In this document: positions 1,028 to 14,884 of the stretch, piece after piece
Numbering within the stretch: position 1 is the first letter of the stretch
Layout: every line of letters starts with the position of its first letter
Source of the DNA: Stenotrophomonas sp. SAU14A_NAIMI4_8
Lineage (GTDB): Bacteria > Pseudomonadota > Gammaproteobacteria > Xanthomonadales > Xanthomonadaceae
DNA length: 64,000 bases
Direction: 5' to 3'
Assembly (NCBI RefSeq): GCF_003086695.1
Contig: NZ_CP025999.1
Location: 180,320-244,319 of the forward strand
Translations under genes and position numbers: made by a program
The notes under the pieces: generated by a model
Told to the model about the DNA's origin: nothing
Databases searched by the model: none
What the model saw: only the letters and a program-made list of their open reading frames with translations

Positions 1028-3296
<2,269 letters not shown>

Positions 3297-3316
3297 TAGG
3301 CCAATGGAAAACTGCA

Positions 3317-3793
3317 ATGCGTGAACTGATCCTGCTGCGCCATGCCCATGCCGAACCGGCCACCCCTGGCCAGGCTGACCTTGACCGGCCGTTGTCGCCG
3401 GTGGGGCTGGCCGAGGCCGAAGCCGCCGGCAAGTGGCTGAAGGACAACAACCTGCTGCCCGACTGTGTGCTGTGCTCGCCGGCGCGGCGCACCCGCGAAA
3501 CGCTGGAGGCGGTGATGGCGGCCATCGGCTATGTCGAAAAGCGCCTGGAAGACAGTGTCTACGAGGCCACCCCCGGCACCCTGGCGGCGCTGGTGGATGA
3601 CCGCCGCGACCTGGACCGGCTGCTGATCGTCGGCCACAACCCGGGCCTGGAACGGCTGGTGGCGCTGATGACCGAGGGCACCAGCAGCGACTACCGGGGC
3701 ATGCCGCCGGCGGGCGTGGCGGTGCTGGGCTTCCCCCGCGAGGCCAGCATCGAGCCCGGTGTGGCCAGCCTGAACGCGTTCTGGTGGCCGTGA
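3317..3793 (+). CDS. sixA: SixA-like histidine phosphatase
   Basis: Small (158 residues) member of the histidine phosphatase superfamily. It shows the RHG-type motif LLRHAHAE with the phospho-accepting His9, Arg in SPARRTRET, and the second catalytic His in VGHNPGLE. In E. coli, SixA removes phosphate from histidine phosphotransfer proteins such as ArcB or PtsN-system components; the substrate here is not known. It is the first gene of a seven-gene run: the next ATG lies four bases after its stop. Confidence 0.88.
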   Translation: MRELILLRHAHAEPATPGQADLDRPLSPVGLAEAEAAGKWLKDNNLLPDCVLCSPARRTRETLEAVMAAIGYVEKRLEDSVYEATPGTLAALVDDRRDLDRLLIVGHNPGLERLVALMTEGTSSDYRGMPPAGVAVLGFPREASIEPGVASLNAFWWP

Positions 3794-3797
3794 AGCC

Positions 3798-4424
3798 ATG
3801 AGCCTGGCGTTGCCGGGCCGCTGCCTGCTGGCCTGGCTGCTGCTCCCCGGCGTAGCCTGGGCCGGAGTGCCGGCGCCCTCCACCCCCACCTCCCTGCCGC
3901 CGGTGGTGAGCGAAGCCCGGCGCACGATGCAGCTGGACCTGGAACGCTCGCAGATCGGCTTCGAAGTGCGATCGCGGCTGGGCCAGCGCATCGAAGGGGT
4001 GTTTCCGCACTTCGAAGGGCGGGTGGACGTGCTGTCCGACGGTCGCCACCAGGTGCACCTGAAGATGTTCACCCGCACCGTGGAAATTCCCGGCAAGGAA
4101 CGCTACACCGGCTGGATGCGCGGGCCGGAATTCTTCGATGCCGGGCGCTATCCCTTCGTCGAATTCGACTCGCTGCCGTACTGGCCGGAAACGGTGGAGC
4201 GTGGCGGTGAGATCCAGGGCCGGCTGACCCTGCGCGGCGTCAGCCATCCTGAATCGCTGCAGGTCGAGAAGGCGGAATGTGGCCGACCCGGCTATGATTG
4301 CGATGTCGTCAGCCGCGGTACCGTGCAACGAGGCCGGTACGGTATGGACAGCTGGCAGCTTGCCTTGAGTGACCGAGTGACTTTCGTATTGCGCGCGCGC
4401 CTGAGCGAGGCGTCCAAACCGTGA
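3798..4424 (+). CDS. YceI-like periplasmic protein
   Basis: Exported protein of 208 residues with an N-terminal signal peptide (LLAWLLLPGVAWAG, cleavage near residue 22). The mature part resembles the YceI lipocalin-like fold: a QLDLERSQIGFEVRSRLG opening, an internal PEFFDAGRYPFVEFDS block and a C-terminal beta-rich stretch. YceI proteins bind polyisoprenoid or other amphiphilic ligands in the periplasm. Its stop overlaps the next gene's GTG by four bases (GTGA), which points to translational coupling with the phospholipase-D-like gene and hence to a lipid-related role; that role is inference. Confidence 0.82.
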   Translation: MSLALPGRCLLAWLLLPGVAWAGVPAPSTPTSLPPVVSEARRTMQLDLERSQIGFEVRSRLGQRIEGVFPHFEGRVDVLSDGRHQVHLKMFTRTVEIPGKERYTGWMRGPEFFDAGRYPFVEFDSLPYWPETVERGGEIQGRLTLRGVSHPESLQVEKAECGRPGYDCDVVSRGTVQRGRYGMDSWQLALSDRVTFVLRARLSEASKP

Positions 4425-6472
4425 ATTTCCTGTTGCGCGTGGTAGCGCTGGCAACGGTGTTGCTGGGCAGCGGGTGTGCGTCGTTGTCGCACGCCCAGCG
4501 TGACCGTGCCGAAGCCATCGCCGTGCAGGCGCGCTCGGCCCAGGTCGATTGCCAGCGCGCCGACCGCTGCGCGCAGGATTCACCGCTGCGCGCCCTGGCC
4601 GGCCGTGCCTTCAGCGAATCCACCGATACCCAGCCGCGGCACTACGCCACCTTGCTGGATGAGGGCGAAGGTGCGCTGGTGGCGCGCCTGAACCTGATGC
4701 GCAGCGCCACCCGCAGCATCGACCTGCAGACCTACATCTTCGACAAGGACGACAGTGCGCGCCTGGTCATCGACGAACTGCTGGCCGCTGCCCGGCGCGG
4801 GGTGAAGGTGCGGGTGCTGATCGACCAGCTGTCGGCCATCTCCGACCTGCAGATCCTGGGCGCGCTGTCCGGCGCCCACCAGAACTTCCAGCTGCGGGTG
4901 TACAACCCGACCTTCGGCAAGGCGCGGCTGAATTACTTCGATTACGCCGGCAGCGTGCTGTGCTGCTTCCGCCGCTTCAACCAGCGCATGCACAACAAGC
5001 TGCTGGTGATCGACGATGCCATCGGTGTGGTGGGCGGGCGCAACTACCAGGACGACTATTACGACTGGGACCGCGAATACAACTTCCGCGACCGCGATGT
5101 GCTGATTGCCGGCCCCGAAGCGCGCGCCATGGCCGCCAACTTCGATGCGTTCTGGCGTGCCCCGCGCAGCGTGCCGGCCGAGCGCCTGAACGATGTCGGC
5201 CGCACCCTGCTCAACGAGGGCGTGCCGGCGCTGCCGCCCGCGCAGTTCCGCCGCCCCGAACGGGTGGAGCGGGTCAGCGAGGAGGCCAACGACCAGGGCT
5301 TCATCACCCGCAGCTTCGTGGACACCGCACTACCGGTGGCCTCGGTGCGCTACGTGGCCGACCTGCCGCGCAAGCACCGCCGCGAGCGTGCCGACGCGCC
5401 CCTGGCCGGCCAGCACGTGACCGAACCGCAGCTGGACAGCCTGATTGCCGGTGCGCAGAAGGAAGTGATCCTGCAGACCCCATACCTGGTGCTGTCCAAG
5501 CCGGCGCAGGCGCTGTTCCGCGACCTGCGCAAGCGGCCCGAACCGCCGCGCATCGTGGTGTCCAGCAACAGCCTGGCGGCCACCGACAACCCCATCGTCT
5601 ATGCGCTGTCGTACAAGTACAAGCGGCGCAACATGCGCGAACTGGGCTTCAACATCTTCGAATACAAGCCGTTCCCGCTGGATGCGCCGGTGGACTACCG
5701 CAACCTGCTGCCTGACCCGATTGCCGGCACGGGCAGCGAGGCGGGTGGGCGCAGCAGCCTGATCGGTGGCAGCGCGGCTGGCAGCAATGCCGGCGGCAAC
5801 GATGCGCCGCCTGCGCCGCAGGTGGACAGCGAGCCAGTGCGCCGGGTCAACCCGCGGCTGGGCAGTGCCTACGAAAACGGCCGTGCGCGCCGTCGCGCCG
5901 CCGGCAGCGAGGTGGAAACCCGCCTGCTGCGTACCGAAACACGCCCCTCGTTCCTGGGCAGCAAGGCCGTGAACAAACCCCTGCCCGTGACCCGCAAGGG
6001 CGCGCGCATGGGCCTGCACGCCAAGTCGCTGGTGGTCGACCGCCGCATCGGCGTGGTCGGTACCCACAACTTCGACCCGCGCAGCGAGAACTACAACACC
6101 GAAGGCGCGGTGATCATCGACGATCCGGTGTTCGCCGAACAGCTGGCGCAGAGCATCCTGCGCGACACCCACCCGCAGAACGCGTGGACGGTGGCGCCGC
6201 GCACCAAGCCGCCGGTGTTGTCCGGGCTGAACTACAGCGTGGGCAAGGCCTCCGAAGCCTTGCCGATCCTCGATTTCTGGCCGTGGCGCTATGCCACCGA
6301 CTACGAGTTCCAGCCCGGCCCCGACTGCCCGCAGCCGTTGCCGCGGCAGAGCCCGGATTTCCATACGTGTTATGTGGCCGTGGGCGACTTCCCGGAAGTC
6401 AACGTCGGCCCGAAGTGGTTGCTGGTGCGCATGCTGACCGCATTCGGCGCCGGTCTCGTTCCCATTCTCTGA
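4421..6472 (+). CDS. Phospholipase-D family lipoprotein, ClsC-like cardiolipin synthase
   Basis: A 683-residue enzyme with a lipoprotein signal (LGSGC, lipid Cys near residue 19) and two HKD catalytic motifs: H191-N-K-L-L-V-I-D-D followed by VGGRNYQDDYYD, and H533-A-K-S-L-V-V-D followed by VGTHNFDPRS. Two HKD motifs make one active site for phosphatidyl transfer. Layout and length fit the ClsC/YmdC group, which makes cardiolipin from phosphatidylglycerol plus phosphatidylethanolamine. Residues 430-500 form a long Gly/Ala/Arg-rich linker before the second half, longer than in E. coli ClsC. The GTG start overlaps the YceI-like stop, and the thioesterase gene begins nine bases after this stop. 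Confidence 0.86.
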   Translation: MNFLLRVVALATVLLGSGCASLSHAQRDRAEAIAVQARSAQVDCQRADRCAQDSPLRALAGRAFSESTDTQPRHYATLLDEGEGALVARLNLMRSATRSIDLQTYIFDKDDSARLVIDELLAAARRGVKVRVLIDQLSAISDLQILGALSGAHQNFQLRVYNPTFGKARLNYFDYAGSVLCCFRRFNQRMHNKLLVIDDAIGVVGGRNYQDDYYDWDREYNFRDRDVLIAGPEARAMAANFDAFWRAPRSVPAERLNDVGRTLLNEGVPALPPAQFRRPERVERVSEEANDQGFITRSFVDTALPVASVRYVADLPRKHRRERADAPLAGQHVTEPQLDSLIAGAQKEVILQTPYLVLSKPAQALFRDLRKRPEPPRIVVSSNSLAATDNPIVYALSYKYKRRNMRELGFNIFEYKPFPLDAPVDYRNLLPDPIAGTGSEAGGRSSLIGGSAAGSNAGGNDAPPAPQVDSEPVRRVNPRLGSAYENGRARRRAAGSEVETRLLRTETRPSFLGSKAVNKPLPVTRKGARMGLHAKSLVVDRRIGVVGTHNFDPRSENYNTEGAVIIDDPVFAEQLAQSILRDTHPQNAWTVAPRTKPPVLSGLNYSVGKASEALPILDFWPWRYATDYEFQPGPDCPQPLPRQSPDFHTCYVAVGDFPEVNVGPKWLLVRMLTAFGAGLVPIL

Positions 6473-6481
6473 AGGTGCCCC

Positions 6482-6916
6482 ATGCCGCAGGTGTTCCGCG
6501 AAGCCGTCTCGATCGACCAGCTCAATGCGCTCAGCCGCAACACCGCCATCCAGTCACTGGGCATCGTCTTCAGCGCCGCGGGTGAGGACTGGCTGCAGGC
6601 CACCATGCCGGTGGACGAACGCACCCGCCAGCCATACGGCATCCTGCACGGTGGCGCCTCGGTAGTGCTGGCCGAAACCCTGGGCAGCAGCGCCGGCAAC
6701 CTGTGCGTGGATACCGCCAAGCAGATCTGCGTGGGCCTGGAAATCAACGCCAACCACGTGCGCGCGGTGCGCTCGGGCACGGTCACTGGCACGGCGCGTG
6801 CGCTGCACGTGGGCCGCAGCACCCAGCTGTGGGAAATCCGCATTGAAGACGAGCAGGGCAAGCTGGTGTGTGTGTCCCGCCTGACCCTGGCGGTGGTTGC
6901 AGCAGGCCACGGCTGA
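6482..6916 (+). CDS. Hotdog-fold acyl-CoA thioesterase (PaaI/MenI type)
   Basis: Thioesterase of 144 residues with the hotdog signature around HGGASVVLAETLGSSAG, the Glu/His active-site pattern of the PaaI/YdiI/EntH group. Relatives hydrolyse aryl- or acyl-CoA thioesters, for example dihydroxynaphthoyl-CoA. Placed between a cardiolipin-synthase-like gene and a KAS III-like synthase, it may instead release or proofread a pathway-specific acyl thioester; that is inference. An AAGGTGCCC stretch precedes the ATG. Its stop is five bases before the likely GTG start of the next gene. Confidence 0.82.
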   Translation: MPQVFREAVSIDQLNALSRNTAIQSLGIVFSAAGEDWLQATMPVDERTRQPYGILHGGASVVLAETLGSSAGNLCVDTAKQICVGLEINANHVRAVRSGTVTGTARALHVGRSTQLWEIRIEDEQGKLVCVSRLTLAVVAAGHG

Positions 6917-6921
6917 GCCCG

Positions 6922-7941
6922 GTGGCCGCGGTGCCTTCCAGTGCAGCCTTGCCGCTGCGCATCGTGTCCAGCGGCGCCTGGCTGCCGCGCCGGCGCATCG
7001 CCTCGACCGTGTTCGACCAGCGCTGGAACAAACCGGCGGGCTGGGTCGAACGCCACAGTGGCGTGGCCAGCCGCGCCCATGCCGAGGTCGACGAGCGTGC
7101 CTCGTGGATGGGCGCGCAGGCCGCGCGCGATGCGCTGCAGCGGGCCGGGCTGGGGTTGGGCGACATCGACTGCATCATTTCCGCGTGCGGGGTGATGGAA
7201 CAGGCCATTCCCTGTCAGGCCGTGCTGATCCAGCGGGCGCTGGGGCTGGGCGACAGCGGTGTGCCTTCTTTCGATGTGAATGCCACCTGCCTGGGCTTCG
7301 TGGTGGCGCTGGAACTGGCCGGCAGCCTGCTGGCGCTGCAGCGCTACCGGCGCGTGCTGATCGTGTGCAGTGATATTCCCAGTGCCGGGCTCGACCCCGA
7401 TGACCCGTTGACCGCGCCGTTGTTCGGCGATGGCGCCGTGGCGGTGCTGGTCGAACGTGCCAGCGACGACCAGGCATCGGCCCTGCTGGCCACGCGCCTG
7501 CGCAGTTACGGCGATGGCGCCGCGTTGTGCCAGGTGCCGACCTGCGGCACCGGCATGCGCCTGCACGATGCGCCCGAGGCCTACCGCGCTGCGCACTACT
7601 TCCAGATGCAGGGCCGCGCGCTGTACCGCGAGGCGGCGCGGCGCCTTCCTGGTTTCCTGCAGGACCTGCTGGCCAGCGCCGGCATCAACCTGCAGGGCTG
7701 CGATGTGATCGTGCCGCACCAGGCCAGCGGCCAGGCCCTGGACCACCTGCAGCGCGTGCTGGGCCTGCCGCCGCAGCGGCTGGTGCGCATCCTGGCCGAG
7801 CACGGCAACCAGTTGGCGGCATCGCTGCCGATGGCCCTGCACCAGGCCCTGCTCGATGGCCGCCTGGTGCGCGGCGGGCACGCCCTGCTGATTGGTACCG
7901 GAGCCGGCCTGGCCCTGGGCGGCGCGGTGCTGCGCTACTGA
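6922..7941 (+). CDS. KAS III-like 3-oxoacyl-ACP synthase / thiolase-fold condensing enzyme
   Basis: Condensing enzyme of about 339 residues, FabH-like. All three catalytic residues are visible: Cys123 in NATCLGF, His266 in VPHQAS and Asn296 in EHGNQLA; the 30-residue His-Asn spacing equals that of E. coli FabH. It would join an acyl thioester to a malonyl thioester or a second acyl chain. Overall sequence is diverged from housekeeping FabH and from the OleA I know, so it is probably a pathway-specific paralogue. I use the GTG at 6922; a second in-frame GTG lies at 6931, and an earlier GTG at 6868 would overlap the thioesterase heavily. Its TGA shares one base with the ATG of the SDR gene. Confidence 0.85.
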   Translation: MAAVPSSAALPLRIVSSGAWLPRRRIASTVFDQRWNKPAGWVERHSGVASRAHAEVDERASWMGAQAARDALQRAGLGLGDIDCIISACGVMEQAIPCQAVLIQRALGLGDSGVPSFDVNATCLGFVVALELAGSLLALQRYRRVLIVCSDIPSAGLDPDDPLTAPLFGDGAVAVLVERASDDQASALLATRLRSYGDGAALCQVPTCGTGMRLHDAPEAYRAAHYFQMQGRALYREAARRLPGFLQDLLASAGINLQGCDVIVPHQASGQALDHLQRVLGLPPQRLVRILAEHGNQLAASLPMALHQALLDGRLVRGGHALLIGTGAGLALGGAVLRY

Positions 7942-8948
7942 TGGCGCGCGTCCTGGTCACCGGCGCCAGCGGTTTCATCGGCCAGCACGTGGCACGCGCG
8001 TTGGCCCGCGACGGCTGGCAGGTACGCGCCAGCGGCCGCGATCTGGCCCGCCTGCAGCCGCTTGCACTGGAGGGCATCGAAGCCTGGCCCGGCGATCTGG
8101 CGCAGGCGCCGTTGCAGCCCCTGCTGCAGGGCTGCCAGGCCGTGGTGCACTGCGCGGCGTTGTCCCAGCCGTGGGGCCCGGCGGCAGACTTCCAGCGTGC
8201 CAATGTGCTGGCCACCCAGCGCCTGCTGCAGGCCGCACAGGCCGCCGGCGTGGACCGCTTCGTCCACCTGGGCTCGCCCAGCATCTATTTCCGCTTCGCC
8301 GACCAGTACAACGTGGGCGAAGCGTTCCAGCCGCCGGCGCGCTGGATCACCGACTACGCACGCAGCAAGTGGGAATCGGAACTGGCCGTGGCCAGCGCCG
8401 CAGGGCAGGGCCTGCACACGGTGGTGCTGCGCCCGCGCGCGGTGTTCGGGCCAGGCGACCGCGCCATCCTGCCGCGCCTGCTGGCCGTGGCCGCCGCTGG
8501 CCGCTTCCCGTTGATCCATGCGGGGCGCGCGATGATCGACGTGACCCCGGTCGACGATGCCGTGCAGGCCGTGCGCTGCGCCCTGCGCGCCGGCCACGCA
8601 TGCGCCGGCCGCGCCTACAACATCAGCGCCGGCGAACCGGTGGCCGTACGCGCGCTGGTGCAGGGGCTGTTCCAGGCCATGGGCCTGCAGGTGCAGTTGC
8701 GCAATGTGCCGCGCTGCGTGGCGCTGGCTGCCGCCGGCGTCGCCGAGACACTGGCCCGGCTGCGCCCGGGCTGTCCCGAACCACGCCTGACCCGCTACGG
8801 CGTGGGCGTGCTGGGCTATTCGCAGACCCTGGATATCAGCGCCGCACGGCGTGATCTGGGCTACCAGCCGCAGGTGGGCGTGCAGGCCGCATTGCAGCAG
8901 TTCGCCAACCACTGGCACCGCAGCGGAGGGCGCGATGCTGCGCTTTGA
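7941..8948 (+). CDS. NAD(P)-dependent SDR, epimerase/3beta-HSD type, OleD-like
   Basis: Extended short-chain dehydrogenase of 335 residues. The cofactor motif GASGFIGQHV lies at residues 8-17; an HCAALSQPWG segment and the catalytic YxxxK (Tyr139-A-R-S-Lys143) follow. PRAVFGPGDR and the ending SAARRDLGYQPQ resemble the OleD branch, which reduces 2-alkyl-3-ketoacids in olefin and beta-lactone biosynthesis. The ATG overlaps the KAS III stop by one base, and the 3' end overlaps the next gene by 14 bases, so the three proteins are probably made together. A keto-reduction after condensation is the simplest role; the substrate is unknown. Confidence 0.85.
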   Translation: MARVLVTGASGFIGQHVARALARDGWQVRASGRDLARLQPLALEGIEAWPGDLAQAPLQPLLQGCQAVVHCAALSQPWGPAADFQRANVLATQRLLQAAQAAGVDRFVHLGSPSIYFRFADQYNVGEAFQPPARWITDYARSKWESELAVASAAGQGLHTVVLRPRAVFGPGDRAILPRLLAVAAAGRFPLIHAGRAMIDVTPVDDAVQAVRCALRAGHACAGRAYNISAGEPVAVRALVQGLFQAMGLQVQLRNVPRCVALAAAGVAETLARLRPGCPEPRLTRYGVGVLGYSQTLDISAARRDLGYQPQVGVQAALQQFANHWHRSGGRDAAL

Positions 8949-9768
8949 GTGGGAACTGCTGGAAGCGGGCCACTGCGTGCACCGGCAGCGGGCGGTGCGC
9001 CAGGGGGCCAGCTGGCATCGCTGCGAATTCCCCGCGCTGGTGGCACTGCTGCGCCACCCGCAGCGCGGCTACCTGTTGTTCGACACCGGCTATTCCGACG
9101 CCTTCCTGCAGGCCACTGCGCGCTTTCCCGAGCGCCTGTACCGGTGGGTTACGCCGGTGCACCTGGCCCCCGGCCAGAGCGTGCGCGCACAACTGCAGCA
9201 GCGTGGCATCGGCACCGATCAGATCCACCAGGTGGTGCTGTCGCACCTGCATGGCGACCACGTTGGTGGCGTACTCGATTTTCCCGGCGTGCCGCTGCTG
9301 TGTTCGCGCGCCGCCTGGCAGGACCAGGCCGCACGCGGCCGCCTGCGCGCGCTCAGCGTGGGCCTGCTGCCCGCACTGACCCGCGATGCCGCCCCGCGCA
9401 TGCGCTGGCTGGAAGAACTGCCGGAAGTGGACCTGCCGGCTGCGTTCGCCGCCTTCGGCCAGGGGCGCGACGTGCTGGGCGATGGCAGCCTGCTGGCAGT
9501 ACCGCTGCCCGGCCACGCGGTGGGCCAGCACGGGCTGCTGTTCGAAGGGGCCGATGGCCGCCCGGTGTTCCTGGTGGCCGACGCGGCGTGGTCCAGTGGC
9601 GCCATCGCCGATGGCGTGCCGCCGCCACGCCTGGTCACGGCGCTGCTGGGCCACACCGGCGCCTACCGGCAGACCCTGCAGCGCCTGCAGCACGTCGGCC
9701 GGCAGGTGGATGAGCTGCAGCTGGTGCCCGCGCATTGCGGGCAGTGGCGCCCACGCACCCCCCGGTAG
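8935..9768 (+). CDS. Metallo-beta-lactamase-fold hydrolase
   Basis: MBL-fold protein of 277 residues with the zinc motif HLHGDH (His104, His106, Asp108, His109), a later His in PGHAVGQHG, an Asp in VADAAW and a final His in PAHCGQ: a complete two-metal site. The architecture is closest to N-acyl-homoserine-lactonase/glyoxalase-II-like hydrolases, so a lactone or thioester substrate is plausible. The GGAGGG ribosome site sits inside the end of the SDR gene. The TAG stop is not an ordinary one: it is bases 2-4 of the GTAG that opens a SMAG-type REP at 9765. Confidence 0.84.
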   Translation: MLRFEWELLEAGHCVHRQRAVRQGASWHRCEFPALVALLRHPQRGYLLFDTGYSDAFLQATARFPERLYRWVTPVHLAPGQSVRAQLQQRGIGTDQIHQVVLSHLHGDHVGGVLDFPGVPLLCSRAAWQDQAARGRLRALSVGLLPALTRDAAPRMRWLEELPEVDLPAAFAAFGQGRDVLGDGSLLAVPLPGHAVGQHGLLFEGADGRPVFLVADAAWSSGAIADGVPPPRLVTALLGHTGAYRQTLQRLQHVGRQVDELQLVPAHCGQWRPRTPR

Positions 9769-9831
9769 AGTCGAGCTTGCTCGACTGCTCCTGGCGCGAA
9801 ATCAACCGCCGTCGAGCAAGCTCGACGCTAC
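9765..9831. repeat. SMAG-type REP pair (inverted)
   Basis: Two extragenic palindromes facing each other. The forward copy begins GTAG at 9765 with stem GTCGAGC/GCTCGAC; the reverse copy ends GCTAC at 9831. The forward GTAG supplies the stop codon of the MBL-fold gene. SMAG elements in S. maltophilia are defined by the 5' GTAG and are thought to be moved by RAYT transposases. Confidence 0.85.
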
Positions 9832-9980
9832 GGGGCCCCGAGGAACGGTCGATCAAGCTCCACCCCACCGCCATACGGCGCCGTCAACAGGACACCGTGT
9901 TCCTGCCCATGGCCCCCGTCAATAGGACTTATGGCCGAAATCGGCTGGCAGCGATGGCAGCCCTCCGGTATCGTTCGCGG

Positions 9981-10772
9981 ATGACTTCCCCCACTCCGGC
10001 CCCCCGCGGCGGCGTGGCGCGTGTGTGCCGTTACCTGTACCGCGTACCGCTGCTGTTGGTCCATATCTTCGTGTTCCTGCCGCTGACCCTGATCGGCATG
10101 CTTCCGCCGTGGGCCGATATCCGTGTCGGCCAGGTCCGGCTGGGCGCCAAGGTGGTGAACCTGTGGCAGGGCGGGCTGATGTGGATCTTCGGCTTCCGCC
10201 TGTCACGGGTGGGCGAGCCGTTGCCCGGCGCCGTGCTGTTCGTCGCCAACCACGTCAGCTGGGTCGATATCAGCATCCTGCACAGCCAGCGCATGATGGG
10301 CTTCGTGGCCAAGCGCGAAATCGCCAGTTGGCCGGTGGTGGGTTGGCTGGCCGCGCGTGGCCAGACCATCTTCCACCAGCGCGGCAACACCGAATCGCTC
10401 GGTGGCGTGATGCAGGTGATGGCCGAGCGCCTGCGCGAAGGCAAGGGCGTGGGTGTGTTCCCGGAAGGGCGTACCCGTGGCGGCCACGAAGTGGGCCCGT
10501 TCCATGCGCGCATCTTCCAGGCCGCGGTCGAAACCGGCGTGCCGGTGCAGCCGGTGGCGCTGATCTACGGCGCGCACGGCAACGCGCAGACCATCGTGGC
10601 ATTCGGCCCCGGCGAAAGTTTCTTCGCCAACTTCCTGCGCCTGCTGGGTGAACCGGCGCGGCGCGCGGAAGTTCACTTCCTGGCCCCGATCGGGGCGCAG
10701 GACCTGGAAGGCCGCCGGCGCATCGCCGAAACCTCGCGCGCGCGCATCGTCGCGGCCATGGAAACGGCGTAA
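9981..10772 (+). CDS. 1-acylglycerol-3-phosphate O-acyltransferase family protein
   Basis: Membrane-associated acyltransferase of 263 residues. The HX4D catalytic motif is NHVSWVD with His91, and the glycerol-phosphate-binding block is FPEGRTRGG. A hydrophobic N-terminal stretch at about residues 18-40 anchors it. Members add the second acyl chain to lysophosphatidic acid (PlsC) or act on lyso-ornithine lipids and related acceptors; I cannot tell whether this is the housekeeping PlsC. The ATG at 9981 is used; another in-frame ATG lies at 9954. A REP pair separates it from the preceding operon. Confidence 0.84.
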   Translation: MTSPTPAPRGGVARVCRYLYRVPLLLVHIFVFLPLTLIGMLPPWADIRVGQVRLGAKVVNLWQGGLMWIFGFRLSRVGEPLPGAVLFVANHVSWVDISILHSQRMMGFVAKREIASWPVVGWLAARGQTIFHQRGNTESLGGVMQVMAERLREGKGVGVFPEGRTRGGHEVGPFHARIFQAAVETGVPVQPVALIYGAHGNAQTIVAFGPGESFFANFLRLLGEPARRAEVHFLAPIGAQDLEGRRRIAETSRARIVAAMETA

Positions 10773-10821
10773 GGCGGCGGTGGCCATAGACCCGCCACCG
10801 TCCCTGTCGGCTGTACCGCCG

Positions 10822-11814
10822 ATGCTCACTGCGGCCGATTACCAGCCGCCGCGCTGGCTGCGCAACCCGCACCTGCAGTCCATGCTCAGTTCCAGCCGCA
10901 TGCGCCTGCAGCGCGGCCTGCTGCTGCTGGCCGCCACCGGTGCGGTCAGTGAAGAACTGATCCTGGACGGCGGCGATGGCGTGCGGCTGCAGGGCTGGCA
11001 CAACTACATCGAAGGGCGCGAGCCCAAGGGCATGGCCCTGCTGCTGCACGGCTGGGAAGGCAGCGCCGAATCCAGCTACATGCGCATGGCGGCCGCGCGC
11101 ATGATCGAAGAAGGGTTCGACGTGGTGCGGCTGAACTTCCGCGACCACGGCAACACCCACCACCTCAATCCCGGCATTTTCCATTCCAACCGCATCGACG
11201 AAGTGGTGCAGGCCACCGGCGATATCGCGCGGCGCTGGCCGGGGCTGCCGCTGGTGGCGGCCGGCTATTCGCTGGGCGGCAACTTCGTGCTGCGGCTGGC
11301 CCTGCGCGCGCCCGCCGCCGGCGTGCCGCTGCTGCAGGTGGCCTCGGTCTGCCCGGTGCTGGACCCGGCCTTGACCATGGAAAGCATCGAGAACGGCCCG
11401 GCCATGTACGACTGGTACTTCCGCCGCAAGTGGGCCGGCTCGCTGCGCCGCAAGCGCGATCTGTTCCCCGAACTGAGCGACTGCGACGACCGCGTGCTGA
11501 AGCTGGACATCCGCGCGCTCACCGCCTGGCTGGTGGAACGGCATACCGATTTCGGCTCGCTGCAGGCCTATTTCGACGGCTATTCCATTGCCGGCGATCG
11601 CCTGTCCACACTGCAGGTGCCGGCCGATATCCTGATGGCCCAGGACGATCCGGTCATTCCGTACTCCACCTTCGGCAACTGGCAGTTGCCGCAGCAGGCA
11701 CGGCTGGAAACCGCGTGCTGGGGTGGCCACTGCGGGTTCCTGGAAAACTGGCGTGGCGATGGCTTCTCCGAACGCTGGGTGGCCCAGCGCCTGCGCCGGG
11801 TACTGGGCGGCTGA
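10822..11814 (+). CDS. YheT-like alpha/beta hydrolase
   Basis: Alpha/beta hydrolase of 330 residues from the YheT/embryogenesis-associated EMB8 group. It opens PPRWLRNPHLQSM as these proteins do; the oxyanion region is LLLHGWEGS, the nucleophile is Ser150 in GYSLGGN, and an acid/His pair occurs in AQDDPVIP and GGHCGF. Substrates are not established; esterase or lipase activity is likely. It lies 49 bp after the acyltransferase on the same strand, so the two may be co-transcribed as a lipid-handling pair. Confidence 0.85.
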   Translation: MLTAADYQPPRWLRNPHLQSMLSSSRMRLQRGLLLLAATGAVSEELILDGGDGVRLQGWHNYIEGREPKGMALLLHGWEGSAESSYMRMAAARMIEEGFDVVRLNFRDHGNTHHLNPGIFHSNRIDEVVQATGDIARRWPGLPLVAAGYSLGGNFVLRLALRAPAAGVPLLQVASVCPVLDPALTMESIENGPAMYDWYFRRKWAGSLRRKRDLFPELSDCDDRVLKLDIRALTAWLVERHTDFGSLQAYFDGYSIAGDRLSTLQVPADILMAQDDPVIPYSTFGNWQLPQQARLETACWGGHCGFLENWRGDGFSERWVAQRLRRVLGG

Positions 11815-14584: not shown

Positions 14585-14884
14585 GTAGAGTCGAGCTTGC
14601 TCGACTTGGCCCTCTGTAGAGTCGAGCCATGCTCGACTCGGCCCCTTGTAGAGTCGAGCCATGCTCGACTGCATGAGAAGCAGTCGAGCAAGCTCGACTC
14701 TACCCAGCAGCAGTCGAGCAAGCTCGACTCTACCCAGCAGCAGTCGAGCAAGCTCGACTCTACCCAGCAGCAGTCGAGCAAGCTCGACTCTACCCAGCAG
14801 CAGTCGAGCAAGCTCGACTCTACCAAGCAGCAGTCGAGCAAGCTCGACGCTACCAAGCAGCAGTCGAGCAAGCTCGACGCTACT
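14585..14884. repeat. Ten-copy SMAG-type REP array
   Basis: Three forward GTAG palindromes (starting 14585, 14616 and 14648) are followed by seven reverse copies (starting near 14681, 14711, 14741, 14771, 14801, 14831 and 14861) in an exact 30-bp register. The reverse unit is CAGTCGAGCAAGCTCGACTC plus a TACCCAGCAG-type spacer; the last two units change CTC to CGC and the last spacers change CCC to CCA. The array fills the gap between two convergent genes and runs into the stop region of the lipoprotein gene on the minus strand. No coding potential is supported here. Confidence 0.92.

Follow-up and report, generated by a model that had tools for sequence, protein, structure and literature searches.

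We analyzed a 64,000-base stretch of the genome of Stenotrophomonas sp. SAU14A_NAIMI4_8 (here called the window; G000:C1:180320-244319 on a single contig of 4,479,100 bases), in which a row of seven closely packed genes ends with three that encode a ketosynthase of the ketoacyl synthase III (KAS III) type, a short-chain dehydrogenase/reductase (SDR), and a hydrolase of the metallo-beta-lactamase (MBL) fold. Comparison across the genus divides this row into two units. The last three genes, hereafter the trio, form a sporadic cassette, and the genes for the SixA-like, YceI, ClsC-like, and hotdog proteins, with an acyltransferase gene following on the other side, are genus background. The trio recurs in other phyla; it is an evolutionary unit, and a wider family of gene clusters is built around it. 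We are much surer of this division than of the chemistry, for which we favor, with only a little more confidence than doubt, a cassette that would condense acyl chains, reduce the resulting ketone, and free a beta-hydroxy, lipid-like acid by hydrolysis; that estimate covers the route as a whole, as suggested by family roles and neighboring genes.

The trio and its flanking row in the genus

The genus sample comprised 91 genomes, which are related to one another and do not amount to 91 independent tests, and homologues were called at E ≤ 1e-70 for the KAS, E ≤ 1e-50 for the SDR, and E ≤ 1e-20 for the MBL protein. The hotdog gene is present in 90 of these genomes, the acyltransferase gene in 89, and the KAS gene in 12. 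The SDR and MBL genes occur in exactly the same 12 genomes, adjoining the KAS gene each time, and neither is found in the other 79. In all 89 genomes that have both, the hotdog and acyltransferase genes lie on the same contig and strand; they are direct neighbors, with 40 to 541 bases between them, in 70 (the empty site), and enclose the KAS gene in 6 (G000, G013, G037, G060, G065, and G073). The gap measures ∼2.7 to 3.3 kb and holds no KAS gene in 13 genomes, of which three were examined: G002 carries an antisense PAS-GGDEF-EAL gene, and G016 and G052 carry homologues at the same site (the three stretches are L089:2582-5164, L090 ∼2317-4809, and L091 ∼1846-4404). Since three other genomes of the genus hold this gene or a homologue there, this junction varies repeatedly.

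In the other six KAS-bearing genomes (G001, G012, G016, G021, G027, and G053), the trio lies elsewhere and is followed each time by ATP-grasp, GNAT-like, and Rieske genes. An ATP-grasp gene also follows the MBL gene at the window's own site in G037 and in a Lysobacteraceae metagenome-assembled genome (MAG; L012), where the trio is surrounded by the same flanking genes as in the window. Because of these two cases, the three-gene form in the window, with no F390-synthetase-related or tailoring gene beside it, may be a reduced one. The G+C fraction of the trio genes (0.718 to 0.729, versus 0.668 to 0.706 for the flanking genes) is no more than suggestive of a horizontal origin.

The trio and its partner genes in other bacteria

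Loci in other genomes were the best 80 of 479 confirmed KAS relatives obtained when genomes of named species were scanned with the KAS alignment; they were collected through the KAS alone and not through the SDR or MBL protein, and many come from nearly identical Xanthomonas copies (22 rows in one tree clade). In 79 of the 80, homologues of both the SDR and the MBL protein are encoded close to the KAS gene, and in the last (L032), the contig ends inside the SDR gene. The co-occurrence of the trio in other genomes, on which the earlier sequence-only reading of this DNA had staked its case, is therefore borne out here as it is in the genus. The SDR gene stands upstream of the KAS gene in two loci (L066 and L077). 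Homologues of the ClsC-like and hotdog proteins are near the KAS in only 4 of the 80 loci, those of the YceI protein are near it in 3, and the flanking-gene order of the window surrounds the trio in 4.

The trio is found in Stenotrophomonas, Xanthomonas, Legionella, Alphaproteobacteria, and Burkholderiales and in MAGs of Chlamydiota, Balneolota, Bacillota, and Planctomycetota. In a tree built from 99 KAS rows, without L005 and L087, the window sequence groups with four Stenotrophomonas trio rows, two of them from the same strain, with a support of 100/100. A KAS homologue (E ≤ 1e-40) is also present in 28 plasmid records, and of the eight that were read, seven have SDR and MBL genes adjoining the KAS gene. 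On the Ketogulonicigenium and Paracoccus plasmids (L105 and L109), a sulfotransferase gene and a TetR regulator gene lie divergently beside a KAS-SDR-MBL-F390 row.

Counted within ∼8 kb of the KAS gene, the partners in the 80 loci include an F390-synthetase-related adenylating enzyme (32 loci), an ATP-grasp protein (31), a GNAT-like protein (29), a Rieske protein (29), a GT21 glycosyltransferase (35), and a UGT-like glycosyltransferase (38), with ATP-grasp and GT21 genes never together. An F390-related and/or a tailoring gene is near the KAS gene in 76 loci; among the remaining loci, L032 and L075 stop at the trio or shortly past it. The two F390-related proteins scanned score 412 and 552 bits against TIGR02304 (cutoff, 251.9). 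The designations ATP-grasp and GNAT are taken from how two plasmid records are annotated and from models that are weak or unnamed (NF005315, 331 bits versus 406). A PDB sequence search returned no match for the ATP-grasp protein at E ≤ 0.1 and only two chance-level matches for the GNAT-like protein.

In Escherichia coli, the cluster comprises seven genes (KAS, SDR, MBL, F390-related, PAP2, sterol desaturase family, and acyl coenzyme A [acyl-CoA] desaturase) and is flanked by narI and the tyrT tRNA genes. It is present in 672 of 5,426 E. coli genomes, in 671 of them with at least 80% cover; CFT073 (L110:3001-9882) and Nissle 1917 (L111:3001-9882) carry copies, as does L102. Our search of the open-access literature, for which the CFT073 locus tags used were guesses, found no description of the trio or of the E. 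coli locus. The F390-related, ATP-grasp, and GT21 partners and the PAP2, sterol desaturase family, and acyl-CoA desaturase genes of E. coli fit a lipid-like acid as the product.

The three enzymes and the proposed route

In the route that we favor, the KAS would load an acyl chain onto Cys123 and lengthen it by means of a malonyl-type or beta-ketoacyl thioester. The SDR would then reduce the ketone to a hydroxyl, and the MBL hydrolase would set the beta-hydroxy (lipid) acid free by cleaving either the thioester or a lactone formed within the molecule. In relatives, this acid might then be reactivated by the F390-related enzyme and/or decorated by one of the several tailoring modules. The sequence-only reading had assigned condensation, keto-reduction, and hydrolysis to the last four genes; this is still the best reading for the trio, but the hotdog gene, as its distribution in the genus shows, belongs to the flanking row. 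We rate the trio cluster as a kind of KAS III-initiated lipid or natural-product cluster.

The KAS (P0001) was compared in an alignment of 100 rows, which hold 92 distinct sequences, partly from the same strains. Cys123, His266, and Asn296, noted before, are kept in all rows, and this Cys-His-Asn triad is a FabH feature. The best NCBIfam model is PRK07204 KAS III (NF005541), at 349.7 bits under a cutoff of 402; the FabH model TIGR00747 gives 210.6 bits (cutoff, 292.1) and the OleA model PRK09258 (NF006720) gives 93.9 bits (cutoff, 285), whereas the genome's own OleA reaches 467.3. In a sequence search of the PDB, the KAS matches CorB and MxnB best, the corallopyronin and myxopyronin ketosynthases (E values of 2.5e-67 and 2.7e-65). 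Both are placed inside the FabH clade and have Val94 at the position of the OleA/PpyS catalytic Glu, a residue that reaches into the neighboring subunit (E117 in Xanthomonas campestris OleA) (PMC4578411). Counted from the catalytic Cys, this position is the residue before a conserved Pro; it is Ile96 in P0001 and Ile in 90 and Leu in 10 of the 100 rows, while in the genome's own OleA, the residue preceding that Pro is Glu. The KAS therefore fits the CorB/MxnB pattern, a triad without the OleA/PpyS Glu, and the earlier remark that the synthase is not OleA-like holds: we reject an OleA-type enzyme because of the absent Glu and the model scores. The conserved E93 was considered as the OleA Glu and rejected, being three residues N-terminal to the OleA position and occupied by Glu in no more than 72 of the 100 rows. 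The position aligned with R151 of E. coli FabH, which we take to be the CoA-contacting Arg, is Pro162 in P0001 and Arg in 2 rows.

With Ile or Leu at the Glu site, the KAS is expected to do without the OleA base, catalyzing either a decarboxylative reaction as FabH does or one with an activated beta-ketoacyl partner as is described for MxnB (PMC5724707). CorB and MxnB differ from the trio enzyme in acting on carrier protein-bound polyketide chains, giving an alpha-pyrone; among the ten proteins scanned at 2635-11814, there is no polyketide synthase (PKS) or carrier protein, with no separate search made for the latter. Malleicyprol is reportedly another two-chain KAS III product, and its likeness to the trio, KAS III-type chain joining, is one of description only. 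The same kind of chain joining is described for lipstatin (PMC7064751), and it too is set beside the trio by description.

The SDR carries the expected YxxxK motif (YARSK) and scores 230.6 bits against the OleD equivalog NF042422, under the cutoff of 580 that the genome's own OleD passes with 626.2. That OleD belongs to a complete ole cluster that lies ∼60 kb downstream, beyond the window (G000:C1 ∼250.1-256.8 kb; L100:5132-11817), with an OleC of 1,008 bits (cutoff, 900) and a haloalkane dehalogenase-like OleB candidate of 154.2 bits, below its cutoff; a Fic-domain gene sits between oleA and the oleB candidate. The absence of OleB and OleC reported by the sequence-only reading is thus correct at the trio locus, where the ten scanned proteins include no oleB, oleC, or true oleD product, but not for the genome, and since the genome has a complete ole cluster, the trio is no stand-in for a missing ole pathway.

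The likeness to the OleA-OleD-OleC-OleB pathway nevertheless raises the possibility of an Ole-like head-to-head condensation, in which the KAS would join two acyl chains, the SDR would give a 2-alkyl-3-hydroxy acid, the F390-related enzyme of relatives would replace OleC, and the MBL protein would replace OleB. A KAS III enzyme stands beside an OleD-like SDR, an adenylating gene is close to the KAS gene in 32 of 80 loci, and once this F390-related gene of relatives is counted, the set seems to match the Ole enzymes role for role. CorB and MxnB, the closest PDB matches of the KAS, join two chains (PMC5724707), and an MBL protein closest to lactonases would suit a lactone substrate. Against this, the OleA catalytic Glu is missing from every row, the SDR falls short where the genome's real OleD does not, no OleB- or OleC-type gene accompanies the trio, and the source genome has no adenylating gene of the F390-related family (TIGR02304, E ≤ 0.001). 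We consider such a condensation unlikely.

The HLHGDH motif noted earlier in the MBL protein is present at residues 104 to 109. Among 17 sequences, the metal ligands (HxHxDH, His, Asp, and His) H104, H106, D108, H109, H194, and D216 are invariant and H267 is kept in at least 90%. The MBL model is closest to the N-acyl-homoserine lactone (AHL) lactonases GcL, AiiB, and AiiA and to 4-pyridoxolactonase, with 16 to 22% identity among the matched rows, and has a lactonase-type MBL fold. Alternatively, the KAS and SDR would yield a signal that is a lactone or resembles one, and the MBL protein would be a lactonase whose opening of that ring serves turnover or self-protection and is not a biosynthetic step. 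The fold and metal ligands speak for this. Three residues after the ligand Asp, however, all 17 MBL proteins have Trp219 where GcL and 4-pyridoxolactonase have Tyr (two alignments inspected), and the MBL gene is linked to the KAS gene as tightly as the SDR gene is, which suits a pathway step at least equally; we regard this alternative as improbable. The name AHL lactonase was itself rejected, as the fold is there but the Tyr is not and the scores against the NCBIfam models AttM (67.5 bits; cutoff, 390) and AiiA (50.2 bits; cutoff, 375) are far below the cutoffs.

MBL proteins that release the product are known from polyketide pathways with MBL-type thioesterases, the haliangicin pathway reportedly having one. 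We liken these thioesterases to the trio protein by role only. Among the 50 rows listed from VIA, we saw no MBL thioesterase of the PKS type, which is no evidence against one.

Locus layout and selection

The layout given by the sequence-only reading (seven open reading frames, all on the plus strand, with intergenic gaps of +4, −4, +9, +5, −1, and −14) was reproduced, and its gene types agree with the Pfam and NCBIfam matches of all seven proteins (Table 1). A consensus scan of positions 2500 to 10200 gave no promoter-like site (shuffled mean, 0.5) and two terminator-like sites (shuffled mean, 2.9) and is uninformative either way on cotranscription. The inverted repeat 3′ of the MBL gene, which is SMAG/REP-like, has a unit, GTCGAGCTTGCTCGAC, with 15 exact copies within the window versus 0 expected; an array of the same kind at 14585-14883 has 2.7 copies of 32 bases followed by 6.8 copies of 30 bases.

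Table 1. Genes and repeat at the trio locus (window coordinates)
Feature	Position	Strand	Evidence
SixA-like phosphatase (flanking row, outside cassette)	3317-3793	+	His_Phos_1; TIGR00249, 55.6 bits vs cutoff 74.5
YceI-domain protein (flanking row)	3798-4424	+	PF04264; matched in 3/80 KAS loci
Cardiolipin synthase-like (ClsC-like) lipoprotein (flanking row)	4421-6472	+	PF13091 (PLDc_2); lipobox read by eye; matched in 4/80 KAS loci
Hotdog thioesterase (flanking row; left edge of insertion site)	6482-6916	+	PF03061 (4HBT); 90/91 genus genomes
KAS III-type ketosynthase P0001 (trio gene 1)	6922-7941	+	ACP_syn_III; best PDB matches CorB, MxnB; Cys123/His266/Asn296
SDR P0002 (NAD-dependent epimerase type; OleD-like but under OleD cutoff)	7941-8948	+	Epimerase; NF042422, 230.6 bits vs cutoff 580
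MBL-fold hydrolase P0003 (lactonase-type fold)	8935-9768	+	Lactamase_B; HLHGDH
Inverted repeat (GTCGAGCTTGCTCGAC and mirror copy), directly 3′ of MBL gene	9770-9826		Two exact opposite-orientation copies, 9770-9785 and 9811-9826
Acyltransferase (PlsC/OlsA-like; right edge of insertion site)	9981-10772 (start chosen by author)	+	PF01553 on longer ORF (open reading frame); 89/91 genus genomes
Alpha/beta hydrolase (flanking row)	10822-11814 (start chosen by author)	+	PRK10985-like, 77.2 bits vs cutoff 267, on longer ORF

The sequence-only reading had further taken all seven genes for one functional lipid operon coupling the trio to the ClsC-like lipoprotein and the YceI protein. The tight spacing, with which a shared transcript is possible, and the four loci that repeat the flanking order are consistent with it, but the flanking row lacks the trio in 70 of 89 genomes, the trio lacks the ClsC-like and hotdog genes in 76 of 80 loci, and YceI is no better represented; on these counts we reject one functional seven-gene operon and give that model very little credence.

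The trio is under purifying selection. Pairwise ratios of nonsynonymous to synonymous substitution rates (dN/dS) for its three genes are 0.16 to 0.28 against G013, G073, and G065, 0.28 to 0.31 against G037, and 0.34 to 0.53 against G060. That the trio is a nonfunctional remnant of a larger cluster, as the want of a tailoring or F390-related gene beside it, the ATP-grasp gene at the same site in G037 and L012, and an in-frame stop in the G037 KAS gene might suggest, is highly doubtful given the dN/dS values against the first three genomes and the intact KAS triad and MBL metal ligands of the window.

Several observations weigh against the view of the trio as a functional cassette for a beta-hydroxy acid. 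In the source genome, TIGR02304 and NF005315 gave no match at E ≤ 0.001, a search that covered these two families and not the GNAT, Rieske, or glycosyltransferase ones. Flanking genes have dN/dS values of 0.09 to 0.24 against G013, G073, and G065, and the trio exceeds most of them. The stop in the G037 KAS gene (same record as L005 and L087) is a single TAG, with the SDR, MBL, and following ATP-grasp genes found. Loci of the glycosyltransferase group have the order KAS-MBL-SDR and an SDR with no more than ∼31 to 37% identity, so the substrates may differ. Finally, the eighth of the plasmid records read, from Priestia (L103:8998-12626), has a 37% identical KAS with an acyl carrier protein and an MMPL transporter and without the SDR or MBL protein.

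A tightly packed gene row may thus look like one operon and yet be split into two units by comparative genomics. The trio, often with an F390-related adenylating enzyme, has in our estimate an even chance of being the core of an unnamed cross-phylum cluster family whose tailoring modules are interchangeable and whose products are lipid-derived metabolites of a new class, with one version between narI and tyrT in about one-eighth of complete E. coli genomes. If the pathway is real, one enzyme core would serve several tailoring modules that are so far mutually exclusive, and its product would be a class of lipid-derived metabolites. The copy in E. coli Nissle 1917, which is a nonpathogenic strain, makes the trio directly testable.

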